The position numbers and the translations under genes were made by a program. A stretch of DNA of 64,000 nt. It comes from Enterobacter cancerogenus. Its GTDB lineage: Bacteria; Pseudomonadota; Gammaproteobacteria; Enterobacterales; Enterobacteriaceae. Location of the stretch: the NCBI RefSeq assembly GCF_019047785.1, contig NZ_CP077290.1, positions 434,001 through 498,000 of the forward strand. The letters run 5' to 3'. Below, piece after piece: positions 14,645 through 34,591 of the stretch; positions within the stretch are counted from its first letter, which is position 1; every line of letters begins with the position of its first letter. Under the pieces are notes generated by a model that worked only from the letters and a program-made list of their open reading frames with translations, was not told the DNA's origin and did no database searches.

Positions 14645-14665
14645 CCTGAACGACTTAATAGCGAT

Positions 14666-14686
14666 AGGCCAGATCACGTCTGGCCT
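14666..14686. terminator. Hairpin between convergent mesD and decarboxylase gene
   Basis: AGGCCAGA (14666-14673) and TCTGGCCT (14679-14686) form a perfect 8-bp stem with a TCACG loop, 21 bp after mesD and 8 bp after the opposing stop. The flanking U tracts are short, so it is only a modest bidirectional terminator candidate. Confidence 0.55.
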
Positions 14687-14694
14687 TCTGATCC

Positions 14695-15969
14695 TCAACA
14701 ACAATCTTTAGGTTTCACCGTCGCTATTTTGGCATTAACCGGAATGTTATGACTTTCCAGGCCAGGCACTTGTCCCTGGAGATCAAAATCGAGCACGACA
14801 TCTTTGGCAAAGAATAGACAATGCGTCGAGCCACCGAAATGGAACATACCCAGCTCATCGCCTTTATGCACGTACTGCCCTTCGTAAACCCGGATATCAC
14901 AGGTGGACACTTCCGCCATGCCAACAGCCATAAAACAGAGTAGACCGATATCTTTATTATCTGCCTCGATAAAAATTAATCCACGGGTAGCCACCTCGGT
15001 AATATAACCCTGTGACGCATTCGGACCCGCATCGTCCCGTCCCTGAGATAACGCTTCGGAATAATACGTGCCATCTATAATTTTCGTTTTGACAATGCGT
15101 CCGGATACTGGCGCATGCCAGCGGTGATAGCTAAGGGCACTCAGGAACGCCTGATAGATTGTTCCACCGACAAAATGCTCGGCCAGTTCGTCGTGATCCA
15201 GCATGTAATTCAACGCATAAGGTTGTGCTTTAAGCCAGAATTTGTCCACCGGTTGGACATCTGTGGCCAGACGGTAAGGCGCGGATTCACAGGCATTGAT
15301 GATGACGTTGTCATCTTCTGGGGAAGCTACGGGACGAACCCCTTCCCTGAAACGACGCGTGAAAAAGTCATCCCATGATGTAAAACCATAGTGTGGTCTG
15401 GTTGGGTCGCATTGAAAATCATCAATGAAAGTGGGCATGGCTTTGCGGGCACGCTCGCCAAACCAGCCAGTTTCAGGATCATCATTCAGGACCCGCACAC
15501 TTTCAGCTGACTGCAGGAACACGGCCCATTCATTGAGGATTTTTTTCAGGTGCGCGTTAATTTTATCATTCAGGAATGCGCTCCAGCCATTTTCAGTAGC
15601 CATAGACCAGTTAAAAATGGCGTTAAAAGGGAATCCAACTAACCCGCTCTCATCGAATTCCGGAGCGTGTGTCATGATAATGTTCATTAATCGAAGCATA
15701 TGTTCATAATCCCTAACCTGCGGTACGTTCATCGGTGAATGGGTCAGACGATGAGGAACCTCTTCGAACATTTCATTGAAATGCATGAAAATAACGGGAT
15801 CGCTTTCGATAAAATCTTTAAATTCCTGAATAACCGGCAGTAAAGGTCGTTCAGTCACCGCTTCTTCTTTCATGATTTTATTGAGCCAGAATGCCAATGT
15901 ATTTTCATCAGACGGCATCCATTTGCCCGTAATATATGTGTTCTTCGCTGGTAAAATATGTGCTTTCAT
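14695..15969 (-). CDS. PSD-family pyruvoyl-dependent decarboxylase resembling fungal PsiD
   Basis: 424-residue member of the phosphatidylserine-decarboxylase superfamily. Bacterial Psd is about 300-320 residues and membrane-bound. This protein instead has the N-terminal extension of the amino-acid-acting branch and no membrane helix. It shares with Psilocybe L-tryptophan decarboxylase PsiD the blocks FIESDPV (about residue 53), YGFTSWDDFF (about 173), ACES in place of the Psd PADG, SYHRWHAPVSG, FIEADNK and GMFHFGGS. Self-cleavage is expected at Gly380-Ser381 to make the pyruvoyl group. The start at 15969 has GAGG 6 bp upstream; an upstream in-frame ATG lies inside the antiporter gene. The antiporter gene precedes it by 28 bp in the same direction. 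The substrate is inferred to be a free, possibly aromatic, amino acid. This is not proven. Confidence 0.82.
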   Translation of the reverse strand: MKAHILPAKNTYITGKWMPSDENTLAFWLNKIMKEEAVTERPLLPVIQEFKDFIESDPVIFMHFNEMFEEVPHRLTHSPMNVPQVRDYEHMLRLMNIIMTHAPEFDESGLVGFPFNAIFNWSMATENGWSAFLNDKINAHLKKILNEWAVFLQSAESVRVLNDDPETGWFGERARKAMPTFIDDFQCDPTRPHYGFTSWDDFFTRRFREGVRPVASPEDDNVIINACESAPYRLATDVQPVDKFWLKAQPYALNYMLDHDELAEHFVGGTIYQAFLSALSYHRWHAPVSGRIVKTKIIDGTYYSEALSQGRDDAGPNASQGYITEVATRGLIFIEADNKDIGLLCFMAVGMAEVSTCDIRVYEGQYVHKGDELGMFHFGGSTHCLFFAKDVVLDFDLQGQVPGLESHNIPVNAKIATVKPKDCC

Positions 15970-15997
15970 ACGATCCTCAACTTGATATATAGATAAA

Positions 15998-17485
15998 TTA
16001 AAACGAATAAATTTCCGGAAGCATGCCATCGAATAGCATAACCAGAGAGATAATGGCGATAGCGACCATGATCAGGCTGATATAAAGTTCATGACGTGTA
16101 AATGCGGGTTCATCGGGTGACTCTTCTTTCCTGGCTTTATAGAAAACCAGCAAACCGATGGTGTAAATAACGCAACCCACCAGGATGTACGATAGCCCCG
16201 CAGCATAAATAAGCCAAAAACCATAGACAGTTGCGAAAATACTCGTCAGAAGTGCCGTCGTCGCCCCGTACGCTGCTTCTGCAGGATATTTCTTTGTGTA
16301 GATCAAACGCCATAAATATGCCGAAGAACAAATATAAGCGGGAAGTAAAATCACGCCGGTGATTGACAGCATGACGTTCCATGCATTATTTGAGAAATAA
16401 ACCAGCAGCATTGCTAACTGCATAACCACAGTGGACGTCCACAATGATACATTCGCTACGCCAGCATCATTGGTTCTGGCAAAAACCTTCGGAAAAGCCC
16501 CGTCTTTAGCGCACGCCCAGGGAAGTTCCGCGACAAGCATTGTCCACACCAGCCAGGATGAAAGTAAAGCAACGATCACACCGAAATTAATCATAACTGC
16601 CCCCCAGTGCCCGACCATTTTAGACAATATTGCGGCGGTTGAAGGCGGAGCCATAGCGGCCAGTTCTCCCTGGGAGAAATAGCCATAGGGCAGTACCGAA
16701 ACGGCAACGTAGAGTACCGTTGTAATGATAAAACCTAATATCGTTGCTTTACCGACGGTCTTACTATCAGCCTTATCAGAGAGCACCACAGCACCTTCGA
16801 TACCGATATACATCCACAGCGTAACCAGCATCGTGCTCTTTATTTGGTCGAAAATACTTCCCAGTGGCTTATCGCTGAGTATATTCGACTTCATGTTCCC
16901 CCAGAAATCTACAGAAAAACGATGATATTGAACGGCGTAAAACAGCGCGATAGCAATAAAAATGATGACAGGAACAAATTTTGCGATTGTGCCGATATTA
17001 TTCAATAGCGTAGCGGCCTTTACGCCACGAATCACCAGGAAACTCATCCCCCAGATACAGAGCGAGGCCAATGCAACAGCCTGCCATGTGTTTCCGCCTT
17101 TAAACCAGGGCGGGAAGAAATAGTTAAGTGCATCCATTAAGAGAACCGCATAGCCTACATTACCAAATGCGGTAGACATCCAATATCCCCAGGCTATGAG
17201 AAAACCAACAAGTTTTCCAAAGCCCGCTCTGGAGTACATATAAATTCCTGATTTCATCTCAGGTTTTACATTGGAGAGTATTTGAAACGTTTTCGCCAGA
17301 AAGAAAATACCCAGAGCTGTCACTATCCAGGCGATAATAATCGCACCAAGCGCGGCAGACTGGGACATATTTTGAGGGATATTGAATATACCGCCGCCAA
17401 ACATGGCGCTGACGACCAATAGCGTCATCGCCAGAACACCCAACTGATGACCTGCCGATGAGGCTTTAGGTTTATTATTGTCCAT
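15998..17485 (-). CDS. APC-family amino acid/amine antiporter
   Basis: 495-residue inner-membrane protein with about 12 hydrophobic helices. The first helix carries SAMFGGGIFNIP, the substrate-binding signature of the basic amino-acid/polyamine antiporter group that includes AdiC, CadB and ArcD. Members exchange an external amino acid for the decarboxylated amine. It is the first gene of a two-gene unit with the PsiD-like decarboxylase, the arrangement used by decarboxylase-based acid resistance. An EvgA-like box lies 131 bp upstream. The exact substrate cannot be deduced. Confidence 0.88.
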   Translation of the reverse strand: MDNNKPKASSAGHQLGVLAMTLLVVSAMFGGGIFNIPQNMSQSAALGAIIIAWIVTALGIFFLAKTFQILSNVKPEMKSGIYMYSRAGFGKLVGFLIAWGYWMSTAFGNVGYAVLLMDALNYFFPPWFKGGNTWQAVALASLCIWGMSFLVIRGVKAATLLNNIGTIAKFVPVIIFIAIALFYAVQYHRFSVDFWGNMKSNILSDKPLGSIFDQIKSTMLVTLWMYIGIEGAVVLSDKADSKTVGKATILGFIITTVLYVAVSVLPYGYFSQGELAAMAPPSTAAILSKMVGHWGAVMINFGVIVALLSSWLVWTMLVAELPWACAKDGAFPKVFARTNDAGVANVSLWTSTVVMQLAMLLVYFSNNAWNVMLSITGVILLPAYICSSAYLWRLIYTKKYPAEAAYGATTALLTSIFATVYGFWLIYAAGLSYILVGCVIYTIGLLVFYKARKEESPDEPAFTRHELYISLIMVAIAIISLVMLFDGMLPEIYSF

Positions 17486-17615
17486 AACTGTTCCACTTCA
17501 ATAGGAAAGAGAATTTGTCCTGTACCTTTCACTTCTTAAATAATACAGTTATTAATGATCGTAACAGGCTCTATTAAATAAAACATAGGACACGTATACT
17601 CTATTTGTATTATCA

Positions 17616-17633
17616 TTCCTACATAAGTCGGAA
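17616..17633 (+). promoter_or_regulatory. EvgA-like box before the antiporter gene
   Basis: TTCCTACATAAGTCGGAA carries the TTCYTACA half-site and the GTC core of the motif repeated in this island, but ends GGAA instead of ATCC. It lies 131 bp upstream of the antiporter start. The rest of the 259-bp gap 17486-17744 is AT-rich, with a weak second match at 17689-17706 and a CCTCCC/GGGAGG stem near 17705-17730 behind the dehydrogenase gene. Confidence 0.55.
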
Positions 17634-17744
17634 AAGGATATCTCTAGCACTTATATTTATTGCGTGGAAAGTTATGTGGGATGGAGCATCTCTGCCTGAG
17701 TCATCCCTCCCCTACAATCTGTGAGGGAGGTATTGACTAAAAGG

Positions 17745-18854
17745 TTATTTAAAATCGACAATCATTTGTTGAGGAATGGGCAACTCTCGGGTGGTCTGAA
17801 CACAGCGAGAGAGGTAATCGGTAAATTTGGGTGGTTTTACCATGCCCAGTCTTAGCAATTTTTCATTGTTAAAACGCACATTCATCATCGCAAATGCGCC
17901 ATACAAGCGCATCGCTTTCAACATCAGCCGTTCGTTACAAGGACCAAAGATTTTTTTAAGTTGATGACGCATTTTCACAAGCGCTTCATAATCCACCTGC
18001 CTGTAGCGATCGCCGACAGGCTGCGCTTTAAGAGCCTGTGCCATTGCCCTGTCGATATCAGAAAACTTTACGCTATTCTCTTCCCCGGCAGAAATGTGGA
18101 CAATCTCGCCGTTTTCCAGCTCGCTTTCAAGAAGCATCAGTAACGCATTAGCACAATAGTCTACGGGTATAACATCAATTTTGTCGTCCAGCGAACACAT
18201 AAATTTCTGTAGCATCAACCCCATCCGGAAGACCCAAAAAATACTGCTTGAAGGCTGACACCCATACAGCGTATGACCGACAACAATAGAAGGTCTGGCG
18301 ATAACCAGTGGCAATTGGGGAAAATTTTCGCGCATTAAGCGCTCAATGGTAGATTTTGAACGCGTGTATTCAACCAGGTGTTCTGCATCCTGTGGGAAAC
18401 TCGCATTTTCTGAGACCAATGAATCGGGTTCTGGGGTGCATGACATGGCCGTGCCCACATGTAGAAAACGTTTCAGATTTTTGTTTTCATTCATCCGTTT
18501 AGCGAATTCAAAAGTCCCCGTTATATTCACCTTTTCGATCAGCGGATTATTGCCAAAAGAGGCCACTGCTGCGCAGTTAATAACATGAGTGACATCCTGA
18601 AGTTCAGTAGCGTTAAGAAACGTTGCGGGAGCCGCTAAATCTCCCAGTAAAATGTGGGATTTATTCAAACGCTGCAGACATCGTTCATCGACATTGAACT
18701 TGCGCATGTTATTTTTGACCCGTTCAAGTGCAGCATCATGATCGACCGCCCTGACAAGTAATAATAAATTCAACTCTTCATTTTGGTTGATAATCTTTTC
18801 CAGAACTGCACCACCAATGAACCCGGTTACGCCGGTAATCATTAACTTATCCAT
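17745..18854 (-). CDS. Extended SDR, thioester-reductase/male-sterility-like NAD(P)-binding protein
   Basis: 369-residue extended short-chain dehydrogenase. GVTGFIGGAVLEK at residues 8-20 is the TGxxGxxG Rossmann motif, INCAA near 90 is the second NAD(P) contact and YTRSK near 163 provides the catalytic Tyr and Lys. The overall pattern resembles the reductase domain that releases acyl thioesters as aldehydes (NAD_binding_4 family), but no carrier or adenylation domain is present or adjacent. GTGAGG stands 10 bp before the ATG. It lies upstream of the antiporter in the same orientation, 259 bp away, probably as its own unit. An EvgA-like box is 158 bp upstream. Substrate unknown. Confidence 0.75.
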   Translation of the reverse strand: MDKLMITGVTGFIGGAVLEKIINQNEELNLLLLVRAVDHDAALERVKNNMRKFNVDERCLQRLNKSHILLGDLAAPATFLNATELQDVTHVINCAAVASFGNNPLIEKVNITGTFEFAKRMNENKNLKRFLHVGTAMSCTPEPDSLVSENASFPQDAEHLVEYTRSKSTIERLMRENFPQLPLVIARPSIVVGHTLYGCQPSSSIFWVFRMGLMLQKFMCSLDDKIDVIPVDYCANALLMLLESELENGEIVHISAGEENSVKFSDIDRAMAQALKAQPVGDRYRQVDYEALVKMRHQLKKIFGPCNERLMLKAMRLYGAFAMMNVRFNNEKLLRLGMVKPPKFTDYLSRCVQTTRELPIPQQMIVDFK

Positions 18855-19011
18855 TTACTTTAACCTCACCATTTATTCTTTCCGGAAGTGTAAGTCCATC
18901 TTCATAAACGCCAATTAAATGGATAAGGAACACATGTAACATCTCTTTTGTTATAAATTGTGATAATCAAACAAGAAATGTGTCCACCGATCTTCCTCGA
19001 AATCATCATCA

Positions 19012-19029
19012 GGATGACATGCGAAAGAA
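19012..19029 (-). promoter_or_regulatory. EvgA-like box between the SDR and small-protein genes
   Basis: Reading on the minus strand, TTCTTTCGCATGTCATCC matches the island motif TTCYTACANNTGTCATCC at all but two defined positions. It is 158 bp before the SDR start and 83-86 bp before the divergent small gene. Relative to the small gene it has the same orientation as the slp, emrK and antiporter boxes. Confidence 0.5.
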
Positions 19030-19114
19030 TTCGCTTTCTGGCCCATACATTCTTTCTGATTTATGAATGATAGTGTTCATGCCAGACTAACGGGATGATA
19101 AGCCTCAAAAAGTG

Positions 19115-19432
19115 ATGAAGAAAATGACAAACAATTTAACAAATAGTAAAGAATACGCTGGGTTTGAAACAGGGGTTTCAAAGGAAAGCGTCTCCCATTT
19201 AATCTGGTGTGCACTTATATCACTCTATTTGCATAAGCAGCAGAGAGGTGAAATGACCTCGAATAGTGAAAATTTTCACCTTTTACGATGGTATGCACGA
19301 GCAATGAAAAACAGAACATTTGCTGAAAAGTATTCGCAGACATTACGGTTTTTGCTGCATAACTGGCAAGAATCGGGGTTGTCTAACCAGCTCCACCAGT
19401 ATCTTCTGCATATGTGGATTGCCTACGTTTAA
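19115..19432 (+). CDS. Small hypothetical protein, 105 residues
   Basis: I do not recognise this protein. It is hydrophilic and probably all-helical, has no signal peptide, and carries HLIWCALISLYLHKQQRGEMTS in the middle. The spacing of a first helix, a short polar turn and two later helices recalls the small YmgB/AriR-type regulators of acid and biofilm response, but similarity by eye is too weak to assign. Starts at GTG 19112, ATG 19115 and ATG 19124 are all possible, with no strong Shine-Dalgarno. Support for it being real comes from its isolated position with no overlapping gene, the EvgA-like box upstream, and the slp terminator beyond its stop. Confidence 0.6.
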   Translation: MKKMTNNLTNSKEYAGFETGVSKESVSHLIWCALISLYLHKQQRGEMTSNSENFHLLRWYARAMKNRTFAEKYSQTLRFLLHNWQESGLSNQLHQYLLHMWIAYV

Positions 19433-19483
19433 TTCGTCGCAACACCGTCGCTAAACCCAAGCCTTAGAGCAAGTATTTCAATG

Positions 19484-19516
19484 TTAAAAAGCGTCACGAT
19501 GTAAATCCTGACGCTT
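19484..19516 (-). terminator. Intrinsic terminator of the slp-like gene
   Basis: AAGCGTCA (19489-19496) and TGACGCTT (19509-19516) are perfect arms. In the minus-strand direction the stem is followed by TTTTTAACATT. It begins 28 bp past the slp-like stop. Confidence 0.8.
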
Positions 19517-19544
19517 CCAACGTGATAAGATAATGCCTCCTGGA

Positions 19545-20126
19545 TCAAGGTTCCAGATACGAGTTTTCATTTACCGTTTCTGGCGCACTATAGAAGTACC
19601 CTGGCGGAGGGGCAATACCCCATTCAGGGGACCATGCATAAACCCAACCATCATTTGGCATGAAAGTATTTTCGAGCTGCCACGTCTGATAACTGATCAG
19701 GCCAACATTCAGAAAACGGTAAGGTCGCTTGCCAATAAGTCGATTCTCGGTTCCGTCCATTTTTCCAAGAACGGTAATATATCGATTGCGGAAATTATCA
19801 GGATCAAGGAATTTATCTGAATAGATCAACACACGGCCCTGGAAAGATTGTTGAATTTTAGGTTGCGCATAGCTATTGAGAGGCAGCACCCCTAATTCAA
19901 TAATTGTACGGTTTGGAAGGTTAATGACATTCAGAACCTTCCCGCCCAGTCGAACCTCCTGCCCCTTATACATATCAGGCATCAATGAAAGTTGTTCATA
20001 GGTTGCGGGACTCACTGCAACCTCCCCGCCCTTCAAACTATCAGGTATCATGGAACATCCTGAGAGCAACAGGGTTGAAAAAAGGGTAAAGCTAATGATT
20101 GTTTTCTTAACACTTTTCATCGTCAC
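19545..20126 (-). CDS. Slp-family outer-membrane lipoprotein
   Basis: 193-residue Slp-family lipoprotein. The N-terminus has a positively charged stretch, a hydrophobic core and lipobox LLSGC, so the mature protein begins at a lipidated cysteine near residue 24. E. coli Slp is induced by starvation and acid and sits beside hdeD/hdeAB-type genes. The domain body includes YKGQEVRLGGKVLNV and the GKRPYRFLNV block. The GTG at 20126 is preferred because AAGGA lies 7 bp upstream; the ATG two codons in would be 13 bp away. It has its own terminator and an EvgA-like box 165 bp upstream. The protein is likely a stress envelope factor. Confidence 0.88.
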   Translation of the reverse strand: MTMKSVKKTIISFTLFSTLLLSGCSMIPDSLKGGEVAVSPATYEQLSLMPDMYKGQEVRLGGKVLNVINLPNRTIIELGVLPLNSYAQPKIQQSFQGRVLIYSDKFLDPDNFRNRYITVLGKMDGTENRLIGKRPYRFLNVGLISYQTWQLENTFMPNDGWVYAWSPEWGIAPPPGYFYSAPETVNENSYLEP

Positions 20127-20290
20127 TCGAATATCCTTGGTGAAATAAAGCGAAATAGATTACGTTCAACGTAACGCGTCTTGATTCGATTCGAATTACG
20201 CCCCGAATGGAATCAATACAACACTTGAACGATTTTAATGACTAACACATCAGCAAAGAATGAGATTACAGATCACGCTTTGTCATCTCC

Positions 20291-20308
20291 GTCTTACCGT
20301 TGTCATCC
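20291..20308 (+). promoter_or_regulatory. EvgA-like box upstream of slp
   Basis: GTCTTACCGTTGTCATCC matches TTCYTACANNTGTCATCC with two differences. It lies 165 bp before the slp-like start in the 243-bp gap 20127-20369. Nothing else in that gap stands out except AT-rich sequence and a GATTCGATTCGAATT block near 20192. Confidence 0.5.
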
Positions 20309-20369
20309 TGAGGGGAATTACGGGAGAAATTAACATCCACAACCCAGGCGGATTACTTTATGGATTCCT

Positions 20370-21923
20370 TTAGCGATCTGTAACGCTCCCCTTTCTTCCC
20401 TCGCTAAAAGGAGGACGGGCGAACCAAACCAGTACAGTGAGCAGGATAAATGCAATAGCAGAAAGGCGAAATATTTCATTTGCAGAAATCACCATTCCTT
20501 GCTGTGTTATCAATTGATTAATTTCACCTAGCGACTGAGAAAATGACAACCCAATATGTCCTGTTTGTTCAAGGAAGGCATGTAAAACGGGGTTAAAAAA
20601 ATTAATTGGACCGGTCAGTAACGTATGCTGGTCGGATTCCCAGCGACTCCAGAGGGTCATGGTCAGTGAGGTGCCAATTGACCCCGACAACGTGCGGAAA
20701 AAGTTACTCATACTTGAGGCATTAGCAAATTTATTATCCGACAGGCCTGAAAGGGTTATCGTGGTCAGTGGAAGGAAAAAGCACGCCACCGCGCAGCCTT
20801 GCAGAATCTGAGGGCTAATGATATTGAGAAAATTTATCTCAGCCGTAAACGTCACTGACCGCCAGTAATAGCAGATAGCATAAATTATGAAACTGAAGGT
20901 CACAAGAATGCGCATATCAATCTTGTTGCCATAAAAGCCGATGACAGGTGATAGAATTAAAGGCATGATTCCGATTGGAGCATAGGCCAGCCCCGCCCAG
21001 ATTGCATTATACCCCATTGTTTCCTGCAATAGCTGCGGCATTAGTACAATCGCACCTGAATAAAATAGAAAAGCACAGGAAGTGCAGACGATTCCAATGC
21101 TAAAATTCCTCGATTTAAATAAACTCAGGTCAAGAATGGGGTTATCGTCCGTTGATTCCCAGATAATCAATGATATAAGTGAGATAACCGATATTATTGC
21201 GAGTGCTATAATCGTGGTAGAATTAAACCAGTCCAAATCTTTGCCTTTATCAAGCATGATTTGTAAGGCCCCCACCCCCAGAACCAGCAGGGTTAACCCA
21301 AAGTAATTCATTTTCACGGATTGCGTTTCAGTTTCACGTCCTTTTAACAGTGTGGCGGTGAGTGAAACAGCGATGACGCCCATGGGCACATTAATTAAAA
21401 ATATCCAGCCCCAGCTGTAATTATCGCAAATATATCCCCCCAAAATGGGGCCGCAAATAGGCGCAATAATCACCGTCATTGACCACATGGCCAGTGCAAA
21501 GGTCCTTTTTTCTGGCGGATAATTTCGCAGCAGCAGGCTCTGTGACAGCGGGACAAGCGGGCCCGCCATCGCCCCCTGCACTACGCGAAAGAAAATCAGC
21601 ATATCAAGGCTCGTCGAGCAGCCGCATGCCAGCGACGCGAGTGAAAAACAGGTTACTGAGGATAAAAAAAGGCGTAATTCACCGAAGCGCTGGGCGAGGC
21701 GACCCGTTAAAGGAATCGCGATCGCATTTGCGACCCCAAAGGAGGTGATTACCCACGTCCCTTCATCCGTGGAGGCGCCCAGAAATCCTGAAATGGTCGG
21801 GATTGCGACATTGGAAATCGTGGAGTCCAGCATCTGCATAAAGGTCGCCAGCGAAAGCGCGAACGTCATGCAGATCAGCGTCGCACCGCGCAATGGCTCC
21901 GGCAAAGATTTGAGGGTTTTCAT
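20370..21923 (-). CDS. emrY: EmrY-like MFS efflux transporter
   Basis: 517-residue DHA2-family proton antiporter with about 14 membrane helices, the inner-membrane part of the EmrKY-TolC pump. Helix 1 contains MLDSTISNVAIPTI, the family's motif D1-like signature, and the region after helix 4 carries RVVQGAMAGPLVPLSQSLLL. It overlaps the emrK stop by one base (TAATG), so the two are co-translated. Gene order emrY-emrK-evgA-evgS-yfdE is exactly that of E. coli, where EvgA activates emrKY. Confidence 0.93.
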   Translation of the reverse strand: MKTLKSLPEPLRGATLICMTFALSLATFMQMLDSTISNVAIPTISGFLGASTDEGTWVITSFGVANAIAIPLTGRLAQRFGELRLFLSSVTCFSLASLACGCSTSLDMLIFFRVVQGAMAGPLVPLSQSLLLRNYPPEKRTFALAMWSMTVIIAPICGPILGGYICDNYSWGWIFLINVPMGVIAVSLTATLLKGRETETQSVKMNYFGLTLLVLGVGALQIMLDKGKDLDWFNSTTIIALAIISVISLISLIIWESTDDNPILDLSLFKSRNFSIGIVCTSCAFLFYSGAIVLMPQLLQETMGYNAIWAGLAYAPIGIMPLILSPVIGFYGNKIDMRILVTFSFIIYAICYYWRSVTFTAEINFLNIISPQILQGCAVACFFLPLTTITLSGLSDNKFANASSMSNFFRTLSGSIGTSLTMTLWSRWESDQHTLLTGPINFFNPVLHAFLEQTGHIGLSFSQSLGEINQLITQQGMVISANEIFRLSAIAFILLTVLVWFARPPFSEGRKGSVTDR

Positions 21924-23086
21924 TAGCGTTGACCATTGATTTTGATGATTGTGTGAATTTCATCGTCTACTGGCCCGGTATCAATTACGAGGGCATCGCT
22001 GGCGTACGCAGGAACAACTGAGGTAACGTATGAATTCACCGGCATCGGGGCGCTGGTGGTTCCGTCAGTATCGATTGTTGCATTCATCGACAAGCCAATT
22101 CGCAGGGGGTATCGTCCTATTTCACCTTTATCCAGTTCTATTTCAACAGGCACGCGCTGAACAACTTTGATCCAATTACCGGATGCATTTTGCGATGGAA
22201 GCAGCGAAAACGCATTGCCCGTTCCCATATTGATGCCCTTAACATGACCGTGAAAGATGACCTTATCTCCATAGAGATCGCTGGTAAGCGTAACCCTTTG
22301 GCCGATTTTGACGTTCGTTAATTGTGTCTCTTTGAAATTGGCATTTACCCACATTTGCTGGGCTGGCACCACGGCCAGCAGCGGCTGGGCAGAAGCGATC
22401 GTCTCGCCAACCTGGACATTACGCTGCGCCACATAGCCCGTAACAGGGCTGCGTATATCCGTTCGCTGCAGCGCAAGCCAGGCCTGTTTCATCTGTTCCG
22501 CGGCCTGGAGCACCTGAGGCTGTTTCTCCAGGGTGGTATCCATAATTAAAGCCCTGTTAGCGTTATAGGCCTGAATAGCCGCTTCCAGTGCCGCTTTGCT
22601 GCTGATCGCATTATCTTTTGAATGTTCCAAATCTTCATGGGCGATAAGTCCACTTCCCGCAAGACGTTGCCTCCTGAGATAATCCTCTGAAGCCTGTTTT
22701 GATTGAATTTGCGCAGCGGCAACATTGGCCTGATATTGAGATGCGAGTAGATAAAGTTTACGCATTTCGCGTACCGTATTAGCAAGATTGTTTTTTGCCT
22801 GATTGAAGGCAATCAGCGTATCTGTTTTATCCAAACTGACAAGGATATCCCCCTGATGCACATATTCCGTATTGGTATAATTTACGCTCGTCACGCTGCC
22901 GCTTATTTGTGATGAGATGGAATTCATGTTACCCGTCACATAAGCATCATCCGTACTAACCTGATGCCTGAGAATAATATCCCAGTAAGAAAATAGGCTA
23001 ATCGCTGCCAACAGTAACACGACTAAAAATACAGCAAAATATATTTTCCTGGTCTTCTTTTTTTCTAATGTTTTGTCCTGTTCCAC
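21923..23086 (-). CDS. emrK: EmrK-like periplasmic adaptor
   Basis: 387-residue HlyD-family membrane fusion protein. One N-terminal transmembrane helix (about 15-36) is followed by VSTDDAYVTGNMNSISSQ, the EmrA/EmrK barrel start, then a coiled-coil hairpin (about 95-205) and the C-terminal barrel. It connects EmrY to TolC, which must be encoded elsewhere because no outer-membrane factor adjoins. emrY is coupled by a 1-bp overlap, and evgA is divergent across 409 bp. Confidence 0.93.
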   Translation of the reverse strand: MEQDKTLEKKKTRKIYFAVFLVVLLLAAISLFSYWDIILRHQVSTDDAYVTGNMNSISSQISGSVTSVNYTNTEYVHQGDILVSLDKTDTLIAFNQAKNNLANTVREMRKLYLLASQYQANVAAAQIQSKQASEDYLRRQRLAGSGLIAHEDLEHSKDNAISSKAALEAAIQAYNANRALIMDTTLEKQPQVLQAAEQMKQAWLALQRTDIRSPVTGYVAQRNVQVGETIASAQPLLAVVPAQQMWVNANFKETQLTNVKIGQRVTLTSDLYGDKVIFHGHVKGINMGTGNAFSLLPSQNASGNWIKVVQRVPVEIELDKGEIGRYPLRIGLSMNATIDTDGTTSAPMPVNSYVTSVVPAYASDALVIDTGPVDDEIHTIIKINGQR

Positions 23087-23495
23087 TTTTCAGTCTCTTG
23101 TTAAGATCATGTATTGATAACTCACATAAGATTTAACAAACAGTAAACACCTCTGTTTGTGAGAAATGCACAATATGTCCATTGCGAATGAGAACAGGAT
23201 AGAAAGACTTCATAAATATAAAAGCAGATTTCCCTGATATATTTGCCTCAAAATTCCTACAACTGTCATCCCACGCTCAAAAAGATAACCGTAAGAACAT
23301 GATTTTCAACAACTAATAACTCCAATTGCATTCATTCATGTTTCGTTTACTTTGTTGGCTTTACCATGACTCTTGTTTTATACCTCTCTTTCCTCCAGGT
23401 CAGTTTTGACATGGAACTATTATCGTTTGAATCTTCAATCTCTGTGACACGTTGAGTTCGCAGCGAAAACAATTTTAATTGGATAAGATATTTAA
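23087..23495. promoter_or_regulatory. emrK-evgA divergent control region (409 bp)
   Basis: AT-rich gap between divergent emrK and evgA with no believable open frame. It contains the EvgA box at 23254-23271. A TTGACA at 23406-23411 could serve evgA, but the best -10 (TTGAAT, 23427) is only 15 bp away, so the promoter is not certain. GGATAAGA precedes the evgA ATG. Confidence 0.6.
23254..23271 (+). promoter_or_regulatory. EvgA box between emrK and evgA
   Basis: TTCCTACAACTGTCATCC is a full match to the island consensus TTCYTACANNTGTCATCC and includes TTCCTACA, the half-site known for EvgA in E. coli. It lies 168 bp before emrK and 225 bp before evgA. In E. coli EvgA acts in this same intergenic region. 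Confidence 0.75.
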
Positions 23496-24110
23496 ATGAA
23501 AGCGATTATCATTGACGATCACCCTCTTGCTATTACGGCTATACGTAATTTACTGCGTAAGCACGCCATGGAAATTTTGGCCGAACTCGGCGATGGCAGT
23601 AAGGCAGTTCATTACATGGAAACGCTAAAACCTGACATCATGATCATTGACGTAGATATTCCAGGTTACAATGGCATTCAAGTTTTAGAGAAGCTGAGAA
23701 AACGCCATTACACCGGCATAGTCATTATCGTTTCGGCCAAAAATGATTATTTTTATGGTCGCTATAGTGCGGAAGCAGGAGCAAACGGATTTGTTAGTAA
23801 AAAGGAGGGTGTCAATAATATTATTGCGGCCATTGAAGCGGCGAAAAATGGTTATTGTTACTTTCCCTTCGCCCTCGAACGTTTTACCGGACGTCTTACT
23901 TCTGACCAGCAGAAATTAGATTCGCTGTCCCGGCAGGAGATCGCCGTACTGCGCTACATACTCGACGGGTGTGATAACAATACCATCGCCGAGAAAATGT
24001 TTATCAGCAATAAAACCGTAAGTACCTATAAAAGTCGACTGATGGAAAAACTTGAGTGCAAATCACTTATGAACCTTTTCACGTTTGCGCAGAACACTAA
24101 GATCTGGTAA
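23496..24110 (+). CDS. evgA: EvgA response regulator
   Basis: 204-residue NarL/FixJ-type response regulator, the same length as E. coli EvgA. The receiver domain has acidic Asp7-Asp8, phosphoacceptor Asp52 in IIDVDIPG and Lys102 in the VSKKEG segment. The LuxR-type helix-turn-helix (about residues 140-200) contains NNTIAEKMFISNKTVSTYKS. EvgA activates acid resistance and multidrug efflux genes when phosphorylated by EvgS. evgS starts 4 bp after the stop, and emrKY are divergent. A consensus box upstream suggests autoregulation. Confidence 0.97.
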   Translation: MKAIIIDDHPLAITAIRNLLRKHAMEILAELGDGSKAVHYMETLKPDIMIIDVDIPGYNGIQVLEKLRKRHYTGIVIIVSAKNDYFYGRYSAEAGANGFVSKKEGVNNIIAAIEAAKNGYCYFPFALERFTGRLTSDQQKLDSLSRQEIAVLRYILDGCDNNTIAEKMFISNKTVSTYKSRLMEKLECKSLMNLFTFAQNTKIW

Positions 24111-24114
24111 CCGA

Positions 24115-27100
24115 ATGCATCTGATCAACGTTTTTGTCATCCCCTTTTTTCTCTTTTTCCATGTACATGCCTTTGCCCTACCAACTTACACGGATGTCAA
24201 TATTCAGTACACCAATGGCAGCGTCGAACTGGACGATTTGCGTTTAACTGATGACGAGCTTCGCTGGCTCAACAGCAAGAAGCAATTTTTTATTGCCATC
24301 GACCGCACCATGCATTCGACGCTGCTGCAAACCGTTCCTGATCAAAAAGCGAAAGGGATCAACGTCGATTATCTGGGATTACTGCAGCAAAACCTCAAGG
24401 TTAATATCGTGCTGCGGATCTATCCTCAAGCGAGTGATGCCGCTAACGCGCTAAAGAATGGTGATGTCGACGTCATGCTGACGGACCTGCTTAACACACG
24501 TCCGAAAGATGTCTCCTTTAACGTCTCCCGACCCCTTATCACCACCTATCCGGTGCTGGTAACCACGATTGAAAACACCATGAGCCCCATCGGTACTAAC
24601 CAGCCCGTGAGCATTGCTCGGGTGAAAGGCTATCCAACGAACTCGGACATTTATCGTTCATTCCCCAATGCCACCATTATCGATTATGATGATTACTACG
24701 AGGCGCTTGCCTCCGTTTCGTCCGGCGATAATCTGTATTTTATCGGCAGCAATATCGTGACCAGTACGTTAATCTCTCGCTACTTCACACACTCTCTCAA
24801 TACTATCAAATATTATGATTGCCCCTGTAAAAGCAGCTTCTTTTTCACCCGTAAAGAGATGCCCGTACTACCCGAGATCCTGAACAGGTTTGTCAAAAGT
24901 CTGACGAATGAGGTCAGACGGGATGTTGCGCAAAATTGGCTTAATGTCGGCAATCTGGATTTTATTAACCAGCCTCTGGCGCTAACGAAGCAGGAAAGGA
25001 AATGGATAAAAAAGCACCCAACGGTCAATGTGCTGGTAACGTCCTTCCACCCTCCTTTTCTCATCACCGATAAAGAAGGAACCCCTCGCGGCATGATGGG
25101 CGACCTGCTTAATATCATCGAGCTGCAAACGGGAATGAAATTTGTGCCTGTCTCTTCCCCCGTGACACCCGCGGGCGAAGCCCTGCATCCTGAAGGAAAC
25201 TGGGATATTTTTCCTGGCGCAATCTATACAGAGCAGCGTGAACATCAGGTCGCTTTCACCAATGCACTCATGATGTCACCCTATGTCTATGTCATAAAAA
25301 AAGATCGGATGAAAATCCACAAAATTCTGCCGGGTATGAAGGTCGGATTACCCCTTTATTACGGGTTGGGAGAAACGCTGAAAGCGCAGCACCCTGATGT
25401 GGAATGGGTGGCTGTCGACAATGCGAGTGCAGCATTTCATCAGGTTCAGGAAGGTAAGCTTGATGCGCTAGTTACCTTACAGCCCACGGCGCAATATATG
25501 CTCGACCATTACTATCCGGATTCGCAGATTTTCTTTCGCATTCAGGATATTCCTCGTGCGGCAATTACCTTTGCCCTGCCTCGCGGTGAACCTGAGTTAA
25601 AAAGTATTATTGATAAAGCCCTGAATAATTTACCGCCGAGCGAATTGCTGCGCTTAACCGAAAAATGGACAAAGATGCCCAATGTCACAATCGATACATG
25701 GGATCTTTATAGCCAGCAGTTTTACATTGTCACAGCTCTTGCGGTGTCACTGATAGTCAGTAGCCTGCTTTGGGGCTTTTATCTGCTACGCGAAGTGAAT
25801 CGTCGTAAAGCGATACAGGGCGATCTGGAAAATCAAATCTCCTTTCGCAAAGCCTTGTCAGATTCTTTACCCAATCCAAGCTATGTGGTTGAACCCTCAG
25901 GTCTTATTGCCAGTCATAACAGCGCATTTGCTCAGTATTTCACCCCGGAATACTACGCGACAGCATCGTTGCCCTTAACGCATCCGCATTCGCCATTCTT
26001 AACCATCATGGCTGAATTTTCGGGCTTGCAACTCGACGAGAACGGCTATCGTCCCATCATTACGTGCGAGTTTGAAATCAGTAATGGCCTGGCGACGCGT
26101 TATATCAAACACTGGGTGACCTTTTGCGACATGCCTGCCAGCGCAGACAGGGTGTTCATTTGTGGCTGGGAAGACATCACTGAAACGCATTCTCTCATTC
26201 ATGCACTCGAGGTTGAAAAAAACAAAGCCATTGACGCGACGGTAGCCAAGAGTCAATTCCTGGCCACGATGAGTCACGAGATTAGAACACCAGTAAGCTC
26301 CATTATGGGTTTTCTGGAACTGCTCGCCAGTCAAACACAGTCCGCTGAACAACAGGCGGAAGCCATGAAACTCGCGTATTCAACAGGACAATCTCTGCTT
26401 GGCCTGATTGGTGAAATCCTGGACGTCGACAAAATAGAGTCCGGCAAGTATCAGTTGCAGCCCGAATGGGTTGGCCTGGCAGACCACCTCATGATGATTT
26501 ACCGTGCCTACCACACGCTCGCCGCCAGAAAAAACATTGCCTTAACGATCGAAAGTTCTATCGCTCAAAATAGCCTGGTCATGATTGATCCTCAGGCAAT
26601 CAAGCAGGTCCTTAACAACCTGTTAAGCAATGCGTTGAAATTTACAGAGGCAGGTGGCGTAACGCTTCATGCTTCGCTGACTCAGGAAGATAACGACACG
26701 GCAAGACTGGTTATCCACGTCAAAGACTCCGGCTGCGGGTTAAGCGAAGAGGAACAAAAAGTGCTCTTCAAGCCTTACAGCCAGACACGATGTGGGCGTC
26801 AGCAAACGGGCTCAGGGCTTGGATTGCTTATTTGCAAACAGCTTGTCGCCAAAATGCAGGGTGAGATTAGCGTAAAAAGTTGTCCTGGCGTTGGGTCGAC
26901 TTTCAGCATTTCTATCCCCGTTGCCATCATGTCACGCAAGAGCATGGTAGCCGATAACCATCAGAATTCCTGTCAGCTCTCAGCCCGTTTAAAGATCCTT
27001 ATTGCGGACGATCACCCGACCAATCGTCTCCTTCTTAAAAGACAGCTGAATACGCTTGGCTATGCCGTGACAGAGGCTTGCGATGGCCAGGATGCGCTTA

Positions 27101-27708
27101 TCAAAGCCAGTGAGCAGCATGTTGATTTGTTAATCACTGATATCAACATGCCAAAACTCGACGGGTTCGAGTTGACGCAGGCGCTACGTCAGAAAAATCA
27201 CCCGCTAACGATATGGGGACTCACTGCCAATGCGCAAACGCACGAACGTGAGCGCGCGCTGAGCCATGGCATGGATCTGTGTCTGTTTAAACCCCTAACC
27301 CTGGATAGGCTAAAAATCCACCTGAGCCAACTGAATGTCGTCACGGCACCTTATACCGCGTATCAACATCTCGATATCGAAAGGCTTCAGGCCGATACCG
27401 AAAATGATCCGGAGCTCATACGCGAAATCCTGATGACCTTCATCGACGCTCTCCATGAAGATTTATCCCTGGCGCAACTGGCGTGGCAGGAGGAGGACTG
27501 GCCGGCGTTCAAAAAACGTATCCATCGTATTCATGGCTCCGCCGGCATACTTAATCTGATAGATTTGCGCAAAATATGCCACCAGCTCGAGTCCCTGGTC
27601 ACTCCACCTGACGCTAAGATAATTACAAAGCAAATGGAAAAACTGGAAGCCTGCTCGGGCGAAATTGAACAGGAGATTGCACACTATCTTACCAACGCTG
27701 ACGCCTGA
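24115..27708 (+). CDS. evgS: EvgS hybrid sensor kinase
   Basis: 1197-residue unorthodox sensor kinase, exactly the E. coli length from the ATG at 24115. An in-frame start at 24085 lies inside evgA and is rejected. Order: signal peptide ending near Ala21, two tandem periplasmic SBP3-type domains (about 40-290 and 300-530), one transmembrane helix (about 540-560), a PAS-like domain, a HisKA domain with His721 in MSHEIRTP, an HATPase with NNLLSNALKFTE, a receiver with Asp1009 in ITDINMP, and an HPt with His1137 in HRIHGSAG. All three phosphorelay positions coincide with the E. coli numbering. EvgS senses mild acid and redox state and signals to EvgA. Confidence 0.97.
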   Translation: MHLINVFVIPFFLFFHVHAFALPTYTDVNIQYTNGSVELDDLRLTDDELRWLNSKKQFFIAIDRTMHSTLLQTVPDQKAKGINVDYLGLLQQNLKVNIVLRIYPQASDAANALKNGDVDVMLTDLLNTRPKDVSFNVSRPLITTYPVLVTTIENTMSPIGTNQPVSIARVKGYPTNSDIYRSFPNATIIDYDDYYEALASVSSGDNLYFIGSNIVTSTLISRYFTHSLNTIKYYDCPCKSSFFFTRKEMPVLPEILNRFVKSLTNEVRRDVAQNWLNVGNLDFINQPLALTKQERKWIKKHPTVNVLVTSFHPPFLITDKEGTPRGMMGDLLNIIELQTGMKFVPVSSPVTPAGEALHPEGNWDIFPGAIYTEQREHQVAFTNALMMSPYVYVIKKDRMKIHKILPGMKVGLPLYYGLGETLKAQHPDVEWVAVDNASAAFHQVQEGKLDALVTLQPTAQYMLDHYYPDSQIFFRIQDIPRAAITFALPRGEPELKSIIDKALNNLPPSELLRLTEKWTKMPNVTIDTWDLYSQQFYIVTALAVSLIVSSLLWGFYLLREVNRRKAIQGDLENQISFRKALSDSLPNPSYVVEPSGLIASHNSAFAQYFTPEYYATASLPLTHPHSPFLTIMAEFSGLQLDENGYRPIITCEFEISNGLATRYIKHWVTFCDMPASADRVFICGWEDITETHSLIHALEVEKNKAIDATVAKSQFLATMSHEIRTPVSSIMGFLELLASQTQSAEQQAEAMKLAYSTGQSLLGLIGEILDVDKIESGKYQLQPEWVGLADHLMMIYRAYHTLAARKNIALTIESSIAQNSLVMIDPQAIKQVLNNLLSNALKFTEAGGVTLHASLTQEDNDTARLVIHVKDSGCGLSEEEQKVLFKPYSQTRCGRQQTGSGLGLLICKQLVAKMQGEISVKSCPGVGSTFSISIPVAIMSRKSMVADNHQNSCQLSARLKILIADDHPTNRLLLKRQLNTLGYAVTEACDGQDALIKASEQHVDLLITDINMPKLDGFELTQALRQKNHPLTIWGLTANAQTHERERALSHGMDLCLFKPLTLDRLKIHLSQLNVVTAPYTAYQHLDIERLQADTENDPELIREILMTFIDALHEDLSLAQLAWQEEDWPAFKKRIHRIHGSAGILNLIDLRKICHQLESLVTPPDAKIITKQMEKLEACSGEIEQEIAHYLTNADA

Positions 27709-27713
27709 TCTGC

Positions 27714-27752
27714 CCTTTCCCGGAAGCGCTGTCATCCTTCTTTCGGGAAAGG
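27714..27752. terminator. Stem-loop between convergent evgS and yfdE
   Basis: CCTTTCCCG (27714-27722) and CGGGAAAGG (27744-27752) are perfect 9-bp arms flanking a 21-nt loop. It lies 5 bp after the evgS stop and 5 bp after the opposing yfdE stop. The short ATTTCTTA tail makes a bidirectional terminator likely but not strong. Confidence 0.65.
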
Positions 27753-27757
27753 ATTTC

Positions 27758-28900
27758 TTAGGTAAATTCCCTACGGACTGCCTCGCCATGCTGGTTAAGC
27801 GTGGCCGCTCCCGTGCGGTAATGCGGATCCTGATAGCCGCTGAGCTTAATTGGGTTACCGGGCATCCGTACGCCACCGGCTTCAATCATCATATTTCTGA
27901 CCTGCGTCTGCGGGAGTTCTACCGCTTCTGCCACGCTCAGAATGGGGGCTACGGGCACACCTGCGTCGTCCAGGCGCGCCAGCCAGACGGCGGAGGGTTG
28001 TCTGGACACTATCGCCTCAATTTCTGCCTTAAGCGCCGCCTGATTTTCCACGCGCTGCAGGTTCGTGGCGAAACGCGGGTCGACGCTCAACTCCGCTCGC
28101 CCAAGGGCGCGACACAATGCGTCGAACAACTTGTCGTTCCCACAACAAATGCTGATGGGTTTATCCGCTGTGCTGAATACGTCAAAGGGCGCCATATAGG
28201 GATGGCGGTTGCCAAGACGCGGTGGCGTGTGGTGTGTGGCGATGTAGCTCATCATTCCATGTTCAAGAAACGTGAGCGTCGAATCAAACATCGCGATATC
28301 CACCTGTACGCCGCGCCCCGTTTTTTCCCGTCCGTATAGAGCGCTGGCAATACCACTAAACAAATACAGCCCCGCACACAGATCGGAAATAGAGGTGCCC
28401 ACTCTAACGGGAGGCCCGTCTGGAAAACCGGTCTCCATCATCAGGCCACTCATGCCCTGAATCACGGTATCATACGCAGGGGCATCTTTCAGTGGCCCGG
28501 TGTGACCAAACCCTGACGACGATGCGTAGATAAGCCGGGGATTAATCGTCTGTAAGGTTTTCCACGAGTATCCCAGTTTTTCCAGCGTCCCTGGGCGAAA
28601 ATTTTCTGCCAGCACATCGGCTTTTTTCAGCATATTGATGAAGACTGCCCGGTCCGTGTCGGTCTTAAGATCGAGCACCACGCTCTCTTTGCCCCGATTA
28701 ACGAAGCTGTAATATAAAGACTGACCGTTTAGAAACGGGCCGTACATCCGGGTATCATCTCCGTGGCCGGGCGGCTCGATTTTAATCACGCGTGCGCCCA
28801 GGTCGCATAAAATTTGCGTACCGAACGGGCCATTCAGTACATGTGTCATATCAATCACCAGAAGGCCGCTAAAAGGCCCTGGTACGTTCGTTTCATTCAT
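27758..28900 (-). CDS. yfdE: YfdE, acetyl-CoA:oxalate CoA-transferase
   Basis: 380-residue class III CoA-transferase. E. coli YfdE moves CoA from acetyl-CoA to oxalate, giving oxalyl-CoA for decarboxylation. The N-terminal LVIDMTHVLNGPFGTQ, FRPGTLEKLG, IYASSSGFGHTGP and RVGTSISDLCAG, the last containing the expected catalytic aspartate region, match the family closely. It is last in the yfdX-frc-oxc-yfdV-yfdE series, as in E. coli. Confidence 0.95.
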   Translation of the reverse strand: MNETNVPGPFSGLLVIDMTHVLNGPFGTQILCDLGARVIKIEPPGHGDDTRMYGPFLNGQSLYYSFVNRGKESVVLDLKTDTDRAVFINMLKKADVLAENFRPGTLEKLGYSWKTLQTINPRLIYASSSGFGHTGPLKDAPAYDTVIQGMSGLMMETGFPDGPPVRVGTSISDLCAGLYLFSGIASALYGREKTGRGVQVDIAMFDSTLTFLEHGMMSYIATHHTPPRLGNRHPYMAPFDVFSTADKPISICCGNDKLFDALCRALGRAELSVDPRFATNLQRVENQAALKAEIEAIVSRQPSAVWLARLDDAGVPVAPILSVAEAVELPQTQVRNMMIEAGGVRMPGNPIKLSGYQDPHYRTGAATLNQHGEAVRREFT

Positions 28901-28918
28901 GACGTTAAGCTCAGTGTG

Positions 28919-28951
28919 GGTTGCGAAAAACCATCAAGGCTTCTCGCAACC
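28919..28951 (-). other. Stem-loop in the yfdV-yfdE gap
   Basis: GGTTGCGA (28919-28926) pairs perfectly with TCGCAACC (28944-28951) across a 17-nt loop. It occupies the 69-bp gap between yfdV and yfdE and could affect processing or partial termination of the operon message. Confidence 0.5.
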
Positions 28952-28969
28952 AAAATGCGAAAGTGCGAC

Positions 28970-29914
28970 TTAAGAAAAGAGGCGGCTGATGTATATCCAC
29001 ATCGGTGCAGTGATCATAAAACCCACGACGCTGACAGCCAGGGAGGCGGTACCGGAACGTGTATAGGTATTAAACCGACTGGCGATGATAATGCCGGAGA
29101 AGGCTGGAGGCAGTGCGCCAACCAAAACGGTCATCTGGAGCTGCTCCGCATTGAGATGGAATAGCACGCCCACGATCAGCAAAATCAACGGCATAAGTAT
29201 CAGCTTAAGGAAGGTGTTATAAACAATCTCCAGACTGAGTTCGAACTTATGGGCCGCCAGCGTAAGCCCGGCTGCGAATACCGCTACACCCGAGTTAGTT
29301 TTGGCGATGAGATTGAAGCACGGATCCCAGGAAGCCGGAATTTTTATACCAAGCAGTACCAAAATCGTGGCCAGCAGCGGCACCCAAACTACGGGTTCTT
29401 TAGCTGCAGATATAAGCGCATCAAATTTGCCTCCTTTCATGCCCTCTTTACCCTCAGCAGGATTGAGTAAATACAACCCGAGAGGAATCGTAATCGCGTT
29501 CACAATAATCGAGATGATGGCGACCACCAGCCCGGTTGAAACCGAGGCACCGTAGATGGGGTCAAGCACGGCAAACCCAAGAAAACCTACAGTGGGTGAA
29601 CCCGCTATCAGCGCACAGACTGCTGCTTCCGCCCGGGTTCGTTTGAAGAATTTGTAACAGCTGAACCAGGAAAACAGAAAACAGCCCACGATGACAACCA
29701 GCGAAATCAGCGTCAGCCGGGAGTCGGCAAAGATCATGTCGCGATTCGCTCGGGCAATCGACACAAAGAGTGCCGCAGGGAGCGCATAATTTAGCACCAG
29801 CTTGTTAAGCGCCCTTGCCTGCTCCTCATCAAAAGCCTGGCGCTTACCGCTGACATACCCCAGCAGCATAACGACGATGATGGGCAACAAATCGCCGGTA
29901 AAAAAAGTAAACAT
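28970..29914 (-). CDS. yfdV: YfdV, AEC-family transporter
   Basis: 314-residue inner-membrane protein with about 10 helices of the auxin efflux carrier family. Family members move small carboxylates. Context between oxalyl-CoA decarboxylase and oxalate CoA-transferase genes suggests oxalate or formate, but this is not shown. The first helix is followed by [23 protein letters not shown], typical of AEC proteins. It lies in the same operon order as E. coli. Confidence 0.92.
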
Positions 29915-29933
29915 AACGATATCCTTACGATCT

Positions 29934-29957
29934 CCCCTCTGCGCTACACCAGAGGGG
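29934..29957 (-). other. Stem-loop in the oxc-yfdV gap
   Basis: CCCCTCTG (29934-29941) and CAGAGGGG (29950-29957) form a perfect 8-bp stem with an 8-nt loop in the 63-bp gap between oxc and yfdV. No U tract follows, so a role in mRNA stability is more likely than termination. Confidence 0.5.
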
Positions 29958-29977
29958 AAGTTAATGCGGGGAGTGTC

Positions 29978-31672: not shown

Positions 31673-31694
31673 TATGAATTGCCTCTGAAGTCTT

Positions 31695-31719
31695 TAAAAA
31701 GAGGAGCCAACGCTCCTCT
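31695..31719 (-). terminator. Terminator-like hairpin between frc and oxc
   Basis: AGAGGAGC (31700-31707) and GCTCCTCT (31712-31719) form a perfect 8-bp stem with a CAAC loop. In the minus direction it is followed by TTTTTAAAG. This is a textbook intrinsic terminator 5 bp after the frc stop, yet oxc follows in the same direction, so partial read-through or a separate oxc promoter is implied. Confidence 0.7.
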
Positions 31720-31723
31720 AGAA

Positions 31724-32974: not shown

Positions 32975-33003
32975 GATGATACCTTTACTCAAAAGATGCT
33001 ATG

Positions 33004-33039
33004 CGCAGAGACACCGTCCACAGGGTGAGTGCCTCTGCG
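33004..33039 (-). other. Stem-loop in the yfdX-frc gap
   Basis: CGCAGAG plus CAC (33004-33014) pairs with GTG plus CTCTGCG (33029-33039) with one mismatch. It fills much of the 115-bp gap between yfdX and the frc start. No U tract follows in the minus direction. Confidence 0.5.
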
Positions 33040-33089
33040 AGGGAAATAACGTCGGTATTTAGCACTTCTCCGACATCAAAAAAGATTGG

Positions 33090-34547: not shown

Positions 34548-34591
34548 CATGACTTCTATCTTATTGACTATCTAACATCAGGACAAACGCG

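Follow-up and report, generated by a model that had tools for sequence, protein, structure and literature searches.

The stretch of 64,000 nucleotides of Enterobacter cancerogenus analysed here (the window) contains a gene for a decarboxylase of the phosphatidylserine decarboxylase (PSD) superfamily directly behind an antiporter gene, in an island that also encodes the acid-sensing two-component system EvgAS. We favour, with a probability of roughly 0.62, the interpretation that the two genes constitute a PSD-fold, pyruvoyl, antiporter-coupled module of arginine-dependent acid resistance. The module is real, conserved and probably acid-related, and the evidence points to arginine as its best-supported substrate. 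A box in the promoter of the pair, a predicted site, suggests membership in the EvgA regulon. The original prediction, made from the letters of the window, had placed a decarboxylase-antiporter pair in an EvgAS acid-resistance setting, and this part of it is borne out by the island genes, by recurrence of the pair in other genomes and by further EvgA-linked loci.

A non-lipid decarboxylase of the PSD superfamily

The decarboxylase gene ends with a stop codon at 14695 on the minus strand. A mechanical open reading frame (ORF) starts at 16029 and gives 444 residues, while the ATG at 15969 gives 424; the closest homologues (422-427 residues) begin at the methionine corresponding to the latter. 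The antiporter gene lies upstream, its stop codon separated from this ATG by 28 bp (15970-15997). Length and spacing agree with those predicted. Two Pfam domains score well above their cut-offs of 23.4 and 22 bits, PSDC with 166 bits and PS_Dcarbxylase with 122 bits. Since 6965 of 7998 scored candidates match the decarboxylase at E<=1e-3 and the pair recurs in other bacterial classes, the observation is not due to chance. The enzyme is a non-lipid member of the superfamily and not a lipid Psd: the best Psd-type model gives 101.8 bits where the bacterial Psd equivalog cut-off is 371, the genome carries a separate lipid Psd of its own, and the protein stands apart from lipid Psd in both the tree and the structure comparison. 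The same non-lipid assignment had been predicted, and the tree including PsiD and Psd indeed sets the bacterial proteins apart.

Gly380 and Ser381 of the GGS motif are unchanged in all 43 rows of an alignment, the Ser381 codon (14829-14827) directly following that of Gly380. In the alignment, Glu228, His282 and Ser381 stand opposite the Psd residues Asp, His and Ser (with a one-column slip at Ser), which we take to be the catalytic residues. The motif blocks named in the original prediction are all present, and FIESDPV, ACES, YHRWHAPV, FIEADNK and GMFHFGG are shared with the Psilocybe L-tryptophan decarboxylase PsiD (8x4q, 8zia), Ser before YHRWHAPV being replaced by Ala.

This resemblance to PsiD, which extends to architecture and 44% structural identity, is only half of the picture. 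The arginine decarboxylase of Aspergillus oryzae (9jer, 9jf5, 9jfn), presumably the ADC1 of Murakami et al. 2024 and assigned to the PSD family from PDB titles and sequences, is equally close, with 43% identity for 9jf5; the profile score favours ADC1 (362 bits versus 337 for PsiD). It is a fungal enzyme, 42% identical in the alignment, in which R283, H285 and F378 are replaced (C, N, S). PMC12283126 counts it among three pyruvoyl arginine decarboxylases that arose by convergence. In the tree, the window decarboxylase belongs to a bacterial clade of 17 rows, which is starred. That clade is nested in a larger group of 45 rows, also starred and mainly bacterial, to which the PsiD group does not belong. 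PsiD differs from the window enzyme in its aromatic substrate. It forms a long branch in the group to which it belongs, and many residues that the other groups compared have in common are changed in it. Among those lost are N116, W121, W199, F244, W245, Y272 and Q320, which the bacterial rows share with the ADC1 clade and with most of the other fungal rows compared. The motif blocks stand as predicted; the window protein does not fall inside the PsiD-containing clade.

We also attempted to choose between arginine and tryptophan by comparing alignment columns, and the attempt failed (25 versus 28 columns; see below). All five of the acidic columns in common with the ADC1 clade turn out to be acidic in PsiD too. 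Sequence alone does not choose between the two substrates; operon context does.

Operon context points to arginine

Agmatine is the product of arginine decarboxylase. In Utexia (G672) four intact genes on one strand form an operon in the order aguB (13051-13962), aguA (11949-13049), an antiporter of the window type with 70% identity (10362-11873) and the decarboxylase (8985-10256); AguA and AguB score above their equivalog cut-offs. Klebsiella sp. BIGb0407 and Winslowiella (G178) have the order aguB-aguA-PotE-decarboxylase. Pseudomonas psychrophila has aguB-PotE-decarboxylase, its PotE-type antiporter being assigned by 83% identity to that of Klebsiella sp. BIGb0407. Among nine PSDC genomes, AguA exceeds the cut-off in three, each time as a single copy with the coordinates of the PSDC operon, where it is the sole agmatine deiminase found; G384 has a weaker relative.

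The window's own genome (G000) encodes two ornithine decarboxylases (one of them SpeF with PotE), one lysine decarboxylase (top score LdcC), SpeA, and one diaminobutyrate-decarboxylase-like protein of the family that holds GadA/B. No AdiA above the cut-off was found in it, nor in any of the other eight PSDC genomes.

Two further arrangements were seen. In Winslowiella the aguB-aguA-PotE-PSDC operon is convergent with a second module consisting of a PSDC gene and a window-type antiporter gene (L116, 4981-12894). In Ruegeria haliotis (L013) aguB and an aguA-like gene with an in-frame stop (1886-2863) lie 3-5 kb from the decarboxylase gene; we did not count this locus as support.

The antiporter belongs to the basic amino acid branch

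The antiporter had been predicted to be of AdiC/CadB type. It scores far under both equivalog cut-offs (AdiC, 146 of 574 bits; CadB, 104 of 585 bits) and passes instead the subfamily model TIGR00905 for basic amino acid/polyamine antiporters (494 bits, cut-off 409). Its nearest equivalogs, both below cut-off, are ArcD (TIGR03810, 482 bits, cut-off 591) and the histidine-histamine antiporter (NF040512, 441 bits, cut-off 725). By these profile scores it is an antiporter of the basic amino acid, ArcD-like branch.

The pair recurs across bacteria

Of 210 decarboxylase loci confirmed in genome contigs, 80 were kept. The decarboxylase gene adjoins a window-type antiporter gene in 13 of these loci and a PotE-type one in two (L007, L015), and these 15 are the closest relatives of the window decarboxylase. 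One more locus (L023) has a weaker antiporter relative two ORFs away. Adjacency is thus conserved in kin, and further bacterial classes also contain the pair; because its orientation varies between groups, the two genes were held together or brought together on more than one occasion. A survey of the family (392 genomes) yielded 16 loci besides the window's own, read as 3.4-kb stretches and coming in several cases from genomes that overlap the 80-locus set: five have the window-type antiporter, two the PotE type, and nine none within the stretch. A second PSDC subfamily of about 470-510 residues, 33% identical in two aligned members, occurs at L089-L095 in other genomes of the family; no matching antiporter was found in its 3.4-kb stretches.

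Neighbour clustering placed 76 of 81 loci, five being dropped because the decarboxylase ORF was lost in the overlap filter. The biggest cluster was the antiporter, with 16 loci including the window's; it missed L004, where the antiporter lies 5 bp away. The remaining clusters of 3-5 loci are mostly confined to related genomes. A linkage to polyamine genes across the whole PSDC family was considered and rejected, the antiporter being the biggest neighbour cluster. As a separate observation, genes for a TetR-type regulator and for RND-type efflux turn up repeatedly in the neighbourhood of the decarboxylase, at 3-4 loci whose organisms are unrelated (L004, L006, L029, L076).

A blastn search of 5426 complete E. 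coli genomes gave a sole match, an 11% partial one to an antiporter. The decarboxylase is matched in 34 of 72,556 plasmid records, only one of them above 60% identity: pUPC1, at 80%. A Photobacterium damselae plasmid carries the pair as well (antiporter 69% identical, decarboxylase 47%). The phage search returned two partial decarboxylase matches, both Psd-like.

The pair sits in an acquired acid island

The island of the window is acquired. PSDC is present in one of 60 relatives, namely G000 itself, and EvgS at E<=1e-200 in three of the 60 genomes of the genus, namely G000 and two others whose EvgS is 41% identical; an island-flanking gene is present in 37 of 40 genomes. Of four relatives read at this site, two (G002, G009) have 2990 bp of different DNA between the flanks of the island; in the others (G021, G024) the right flank was not found within the approximately 9.4 kb read beyond the left one. 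The island resembles the E. coli EvgAS island (emrYK-evgAS-yfdE-yfdV-oxc-frc-yfdX) in its core genes and an EvgA-type box; the K-12 island differs in having no slp, SDR or antiporter-decarboxylase pair at that place (Table 1).

Wider surroundings were fetched for ten other loci with a PSDC protein at least 52% identical (L111, L113-L116, L120-L123, L139). At four of them the pair lies near an evgA-type gene: in G115, in the same order as in the window; in Erwinia (L115, and likewise in L003, 99.6% identical); on a Pantoea ananatis plasmid, whose EvgA-like gene is 55% identical and in whose stretch no EvgS was seen; and on pUPC1 (L139, NZ_LR881937.1), a conjugative plasmid of Enterobacter cancerogenus. 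On pUPC1 the pair stands beside evgA, yfdX, emrKY and a DUF308 (HdeD-like) gene, together with aspT and aspartate 4-decarboxylase (asd), cadBA and another Orn/Lys/Arg-type decarboxylase; the stretch read contains no EvgS match. This gene set is a mobile acid-resistance island.

The putative EvgA-type box was sought as the palindrome TTCYTAC-N4-GTARGAA, the first scan using its half-sites with spacers 2-8, after which spacer 4 was found in five K-12 promoters. These are the promoters of frc, evgA/emrK, yfdX, safA and ydeP, which we take to be EvgA targets; each has the box at 0-2 mismatches, and it does not occur elsewhere at <=2 mismatches in the 35 kb of K-12 read. The window has one such site at <=1 mismatch (17616-17633), compared with none in 100 shuffles, and 10 of 20000 first-order Markov resamplings of the antiporter promoter had one. 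G115 and the Pantoea plasmid each have a 1-mismatch site in the antiporter promoter, the only such sites in the stretches fetched, so that a putative box precedes the antiporter in three of five EvgA-linked pairs. Four other promoters of the island (19012, 20291, 23254, 33823) have an asymmetric pattern, TTCYTAC-N4-GTCATCC, unlike the K-12 palindrome. Its low expectation (0.03) is no independent test, because the pattern was read off those same sites afterwards; perhaps the EvgA of the island reads an altered half-site.

Table 1. Features of the window discussed in the text
Feature	Position	Strand	Basis
PSD-superfamily decarboxylase coding sequence, 424 aa, PSDC + PS_Dcarbxylase, proposed arginine decarboxylase	14695..15969	-	ORF, Pfam, tree, structure comparison
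Codons of Gly380-Ser381 (GGS), predicted self-cleavage/pyruvoyl site	14827..14832	-	sequence; alignment invariance
APC basic amino acid/polyamine antiporter, ArcD-like branch, 495 aa, proposed arginine/agmatine exchanger	15998..17485	-	profile scores
Putative EvgA-type palindromic box TTCCTACATAAGTCGGAA, 1 mismatch, 130 bp upstream of antiporter start	17616..17633	.	pattern scan
Acquired island, 20.6 kb	14645..35268	.	flank comparison with relatives
NAD-binding SDR, thioester-reductase type, between slp and antiporter	17745..18854	-	profile matches
Putative variant EvgA-type box, 1 mismatch, upstream of SDR	19012..19029	-	post hoc pattern
Slp family outer-membrane lipoprotein	19545..20126	-	profile matches
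Putative variant EvgA-type box, 1 mismatch, upstream of slp	20291..20308	+	post hoc pattern
emrY + emrK, efflux pump	20370..23086	-	78% and 63% identity to K-12
Putative variant EvgA-type box, 0 mismatch, between emrK and evgA	23254..23271	+	post hoc pattern
evgA + evgS, acid-sensing two-component system	23496..27708	+	81% and 56% identity to K-12 EvgA, EvgS
yfdE, yfdV, oxc, frc, yfdX	27758..33719	-	74, 82, 77, 90, 53% identity to K-12
Putative variant EvgA-type box, 0 mismatch, upstream of yfdX	33823..33840	-	post hoc pattern
HdeD-family protein	33951..34547	+	149 bits, under equivalog cut-off 189

The thioester-reductase-type SDR is also found in G115 (83% identity), and in the window a variant box precedes it. 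On plasmid p1 of Plesiomonas shigelloides (L141) a 46%-identical PSDC gene adjoins an operon for cyclopropane synthase, DUF1365, FAD oxidoreductase and SDR; homologues of this operon (39-55% identity) flank the island in the window at 35753-39666.

Discussion

According to the favoured reading, EvgS/EvgA would detect mild acid and switch the pair on. The proenzyme would cut itself at Gly380-Ser381 and so acquire its pyruvoyl group, and the mature enzyme would convert cytoplasmic L-arginine into agmatine, consuming one proton per CO2 released. The ArcD-like antiporter would then export agmatine and bring in arginine from outside. Where aguA and aguB are part of the operon (Utexia, Klebsiella sp. 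BIGb0407, Winslowiella), their products would carry agmatine on to putrescine, and the ammonia freed would bind more protons; in the latter two operons a PotE-type antiporter would work in place of the ArcD-like one. In this way the module would fill the role of AdiA-AdiC, using a decarboxylase whose fold is unrelated to that of AdiA. We infer the substrate, the self-cleavage of the decarboxylase and an acid phenotype.

Several observations weigh against this reading. No such antiporter was found in 64 of the 80 fetched loci, some of these being short stretches, and no equivalog model confirms the antiporter's substrate. The window itself has neither aguA nor aguB, and there is no AguA match anywhere in its genome. 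SpeA is present in nine of nine genomes, so the supply of agmatine does not need the PSDC decarboxylase, and AdiA relatives occur below the cut-off of 1167 bits in G404 (742 bits) and G115 (739 bits). The tree joins the bacteria to the basidiomycete group with PsiD and not to the ADC1 clade (89/81; PsiD being a long branch). The diagnostic columns favour neither side. Nine bacterial rows are identical at 165 usable columns; of the two fungal references, only the ADC1 clade agrees with them at 25 of these, and only PsiD at 28. Six columns split the aguAB-linked rows from the others, and the substrate may therefore differ between them; the two sets of rows differ by F113/C113 and N120/D120, among others. 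As for regulation, the window is not enriched in boxes when up to 3 mismatches are allowed (4 versus 3.7 expected). The Erwinia antiporter promoter is boxless at <=3 mismatches and the whole Erwinia stretch at <=2, as is the 41-kb stretch of pUPC1.

Could the acid-resistance logic be kept with another cationic amino acid as substrate, ornithine or lysine (giving putrescine or cadaverine) or histidine (giving histamine)? The PotE-type (putrescine-ornithine) partners in Klebsiella sp. BIGb0407, Winslowiella and Pseudomonas psychrophila, the sub-cut-off score of the window antiporter with the histidine-histamine model, and the pyruvoyl histidine decarboxylases beside AaxC-type antiporters, reported in the accessible text of PMC8465708, would all fit. 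However, the substrates of the AguA and AguB encoded in these operons are agmatine and the compound made from it, decarboxylation of ornithine or histidine requires neither enzyme, and arginine is used by one solved enzyme of the family; we regard a different cationic substrate as rather unlikely. A module for arginine catabolism or nitrogen use, only incidentally located in an acid island, would account for the aguA-aguB operons, for the presence of SpeA already in these genomes and for the pairs with no EvgA match in the stretch read (Utexia, Klebsiella sp. BIGb0407, Edwardsiella, Ruegeria). Against it stand the five EvgA-linked loci, with boxes before three of the antiporters, and the grouping of the pair with aspT-asd, cadBA and evgA on a conjugative plasmid, which make this explanation improbable.

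A PsiD-like decarboxylase of aromatic amino acids, whose tryptamine-type amines would be exported, was the substrate idea of the original prediction. The shared motif blocks, the structural identity, the position of the PsiD-containing basidiomycete group beside the bacteria and the 28 PsiD-type columns are in its favour, but PsiD itself is a long branch that has lost the seven residues named above, and the antiporter belongs to the basic amino acid branch, scoring 25 bits with the tyrosine-tyramine model (cut-off 630). Given in addition an equally close A. oryzae enzyme and the aguA/aguB operons of relatives, this reading is very doubtful and tryptophan is not supported as substrate; tryptamine production by the pair is unlikely. 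The annotated function, a lipid phosphatidylserine decarboxylase next to an antiporter by chance, draws on the database names and the PS_Dcarbxylase domain; set beside the Psd scores, tree and structure comparison, it is scarcely credible. We thus return to arginine-dependent acid resistance as the preferred reading.

The E. coli pair AdiA-AdiC likewise combines a decarboxylase with an APC antiporter under acid-associated regulation, and four substrate-site residues of AdiC have counterparts in the window antiporter; AdiC is nevertheless only a distant relative, and AdiA is a pyridoxal phosphate (PLP) enzyme of another fold. AaxB of Chlamydia has a different pyruvoyl fold. We know of no EvgA-type acid island for AaxB-AaxC, nor of an antiporter link for either the A. 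oryzae arginine decarboxylase or PsiD. In the accessible text of PMC2720952, chlamydial aaxABC comprises a pyruvoyl arginine decarboxylase (AaxB, 195 aa, unlike the window enzyme) and an arginine-agmatine antiporter, resistance to acidification being one of several proposed roles; pyruvoyl histidine decarboxylases adjoin AaxC- or GadC-type antiporters (PMC8465708, accessible text). The earlier statement that such decarboxylase-antiporter systems all use PLP was accordingly too strong, and because these systems precede the present one, the logic of the module was already known. Our literature search found no paper on the PSDC-antiporter pairing, most subscription papers lying outside its reach. 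New relative to the literature found are the PSD fold in such a module, the EvgA link and the exchange of antiporters.

More tentatively, and at somewhat less than even odds, the bacterial proteins that bear the name "phosphatidylserine decarboxylase family protein" (PSDC type), of which there are thousands, may make up a class of pyruvoyl arginine decarboxylases that has gone largely unrecognised. One branch of them would be a mobile acid-resistance cassette that swaps its antiporter, ArcD-like for arginine/agmatine or PotE-like with AguA-AguB for arginine/putrescine, and hence changes the number of protons bound per arginine. If the module works as proposed, a large family carries a mistaken annotation, widely copied, as lipid enzymes. 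Bacterial acid survival would then also be served by a branch of the PSD superfamily for which we found activity on free amino acids shown only in fungal enzymes, and arginine-dependent acid resistance would have arisen with yet another decarboxylase fold, in a form that can be plasmid-borne.

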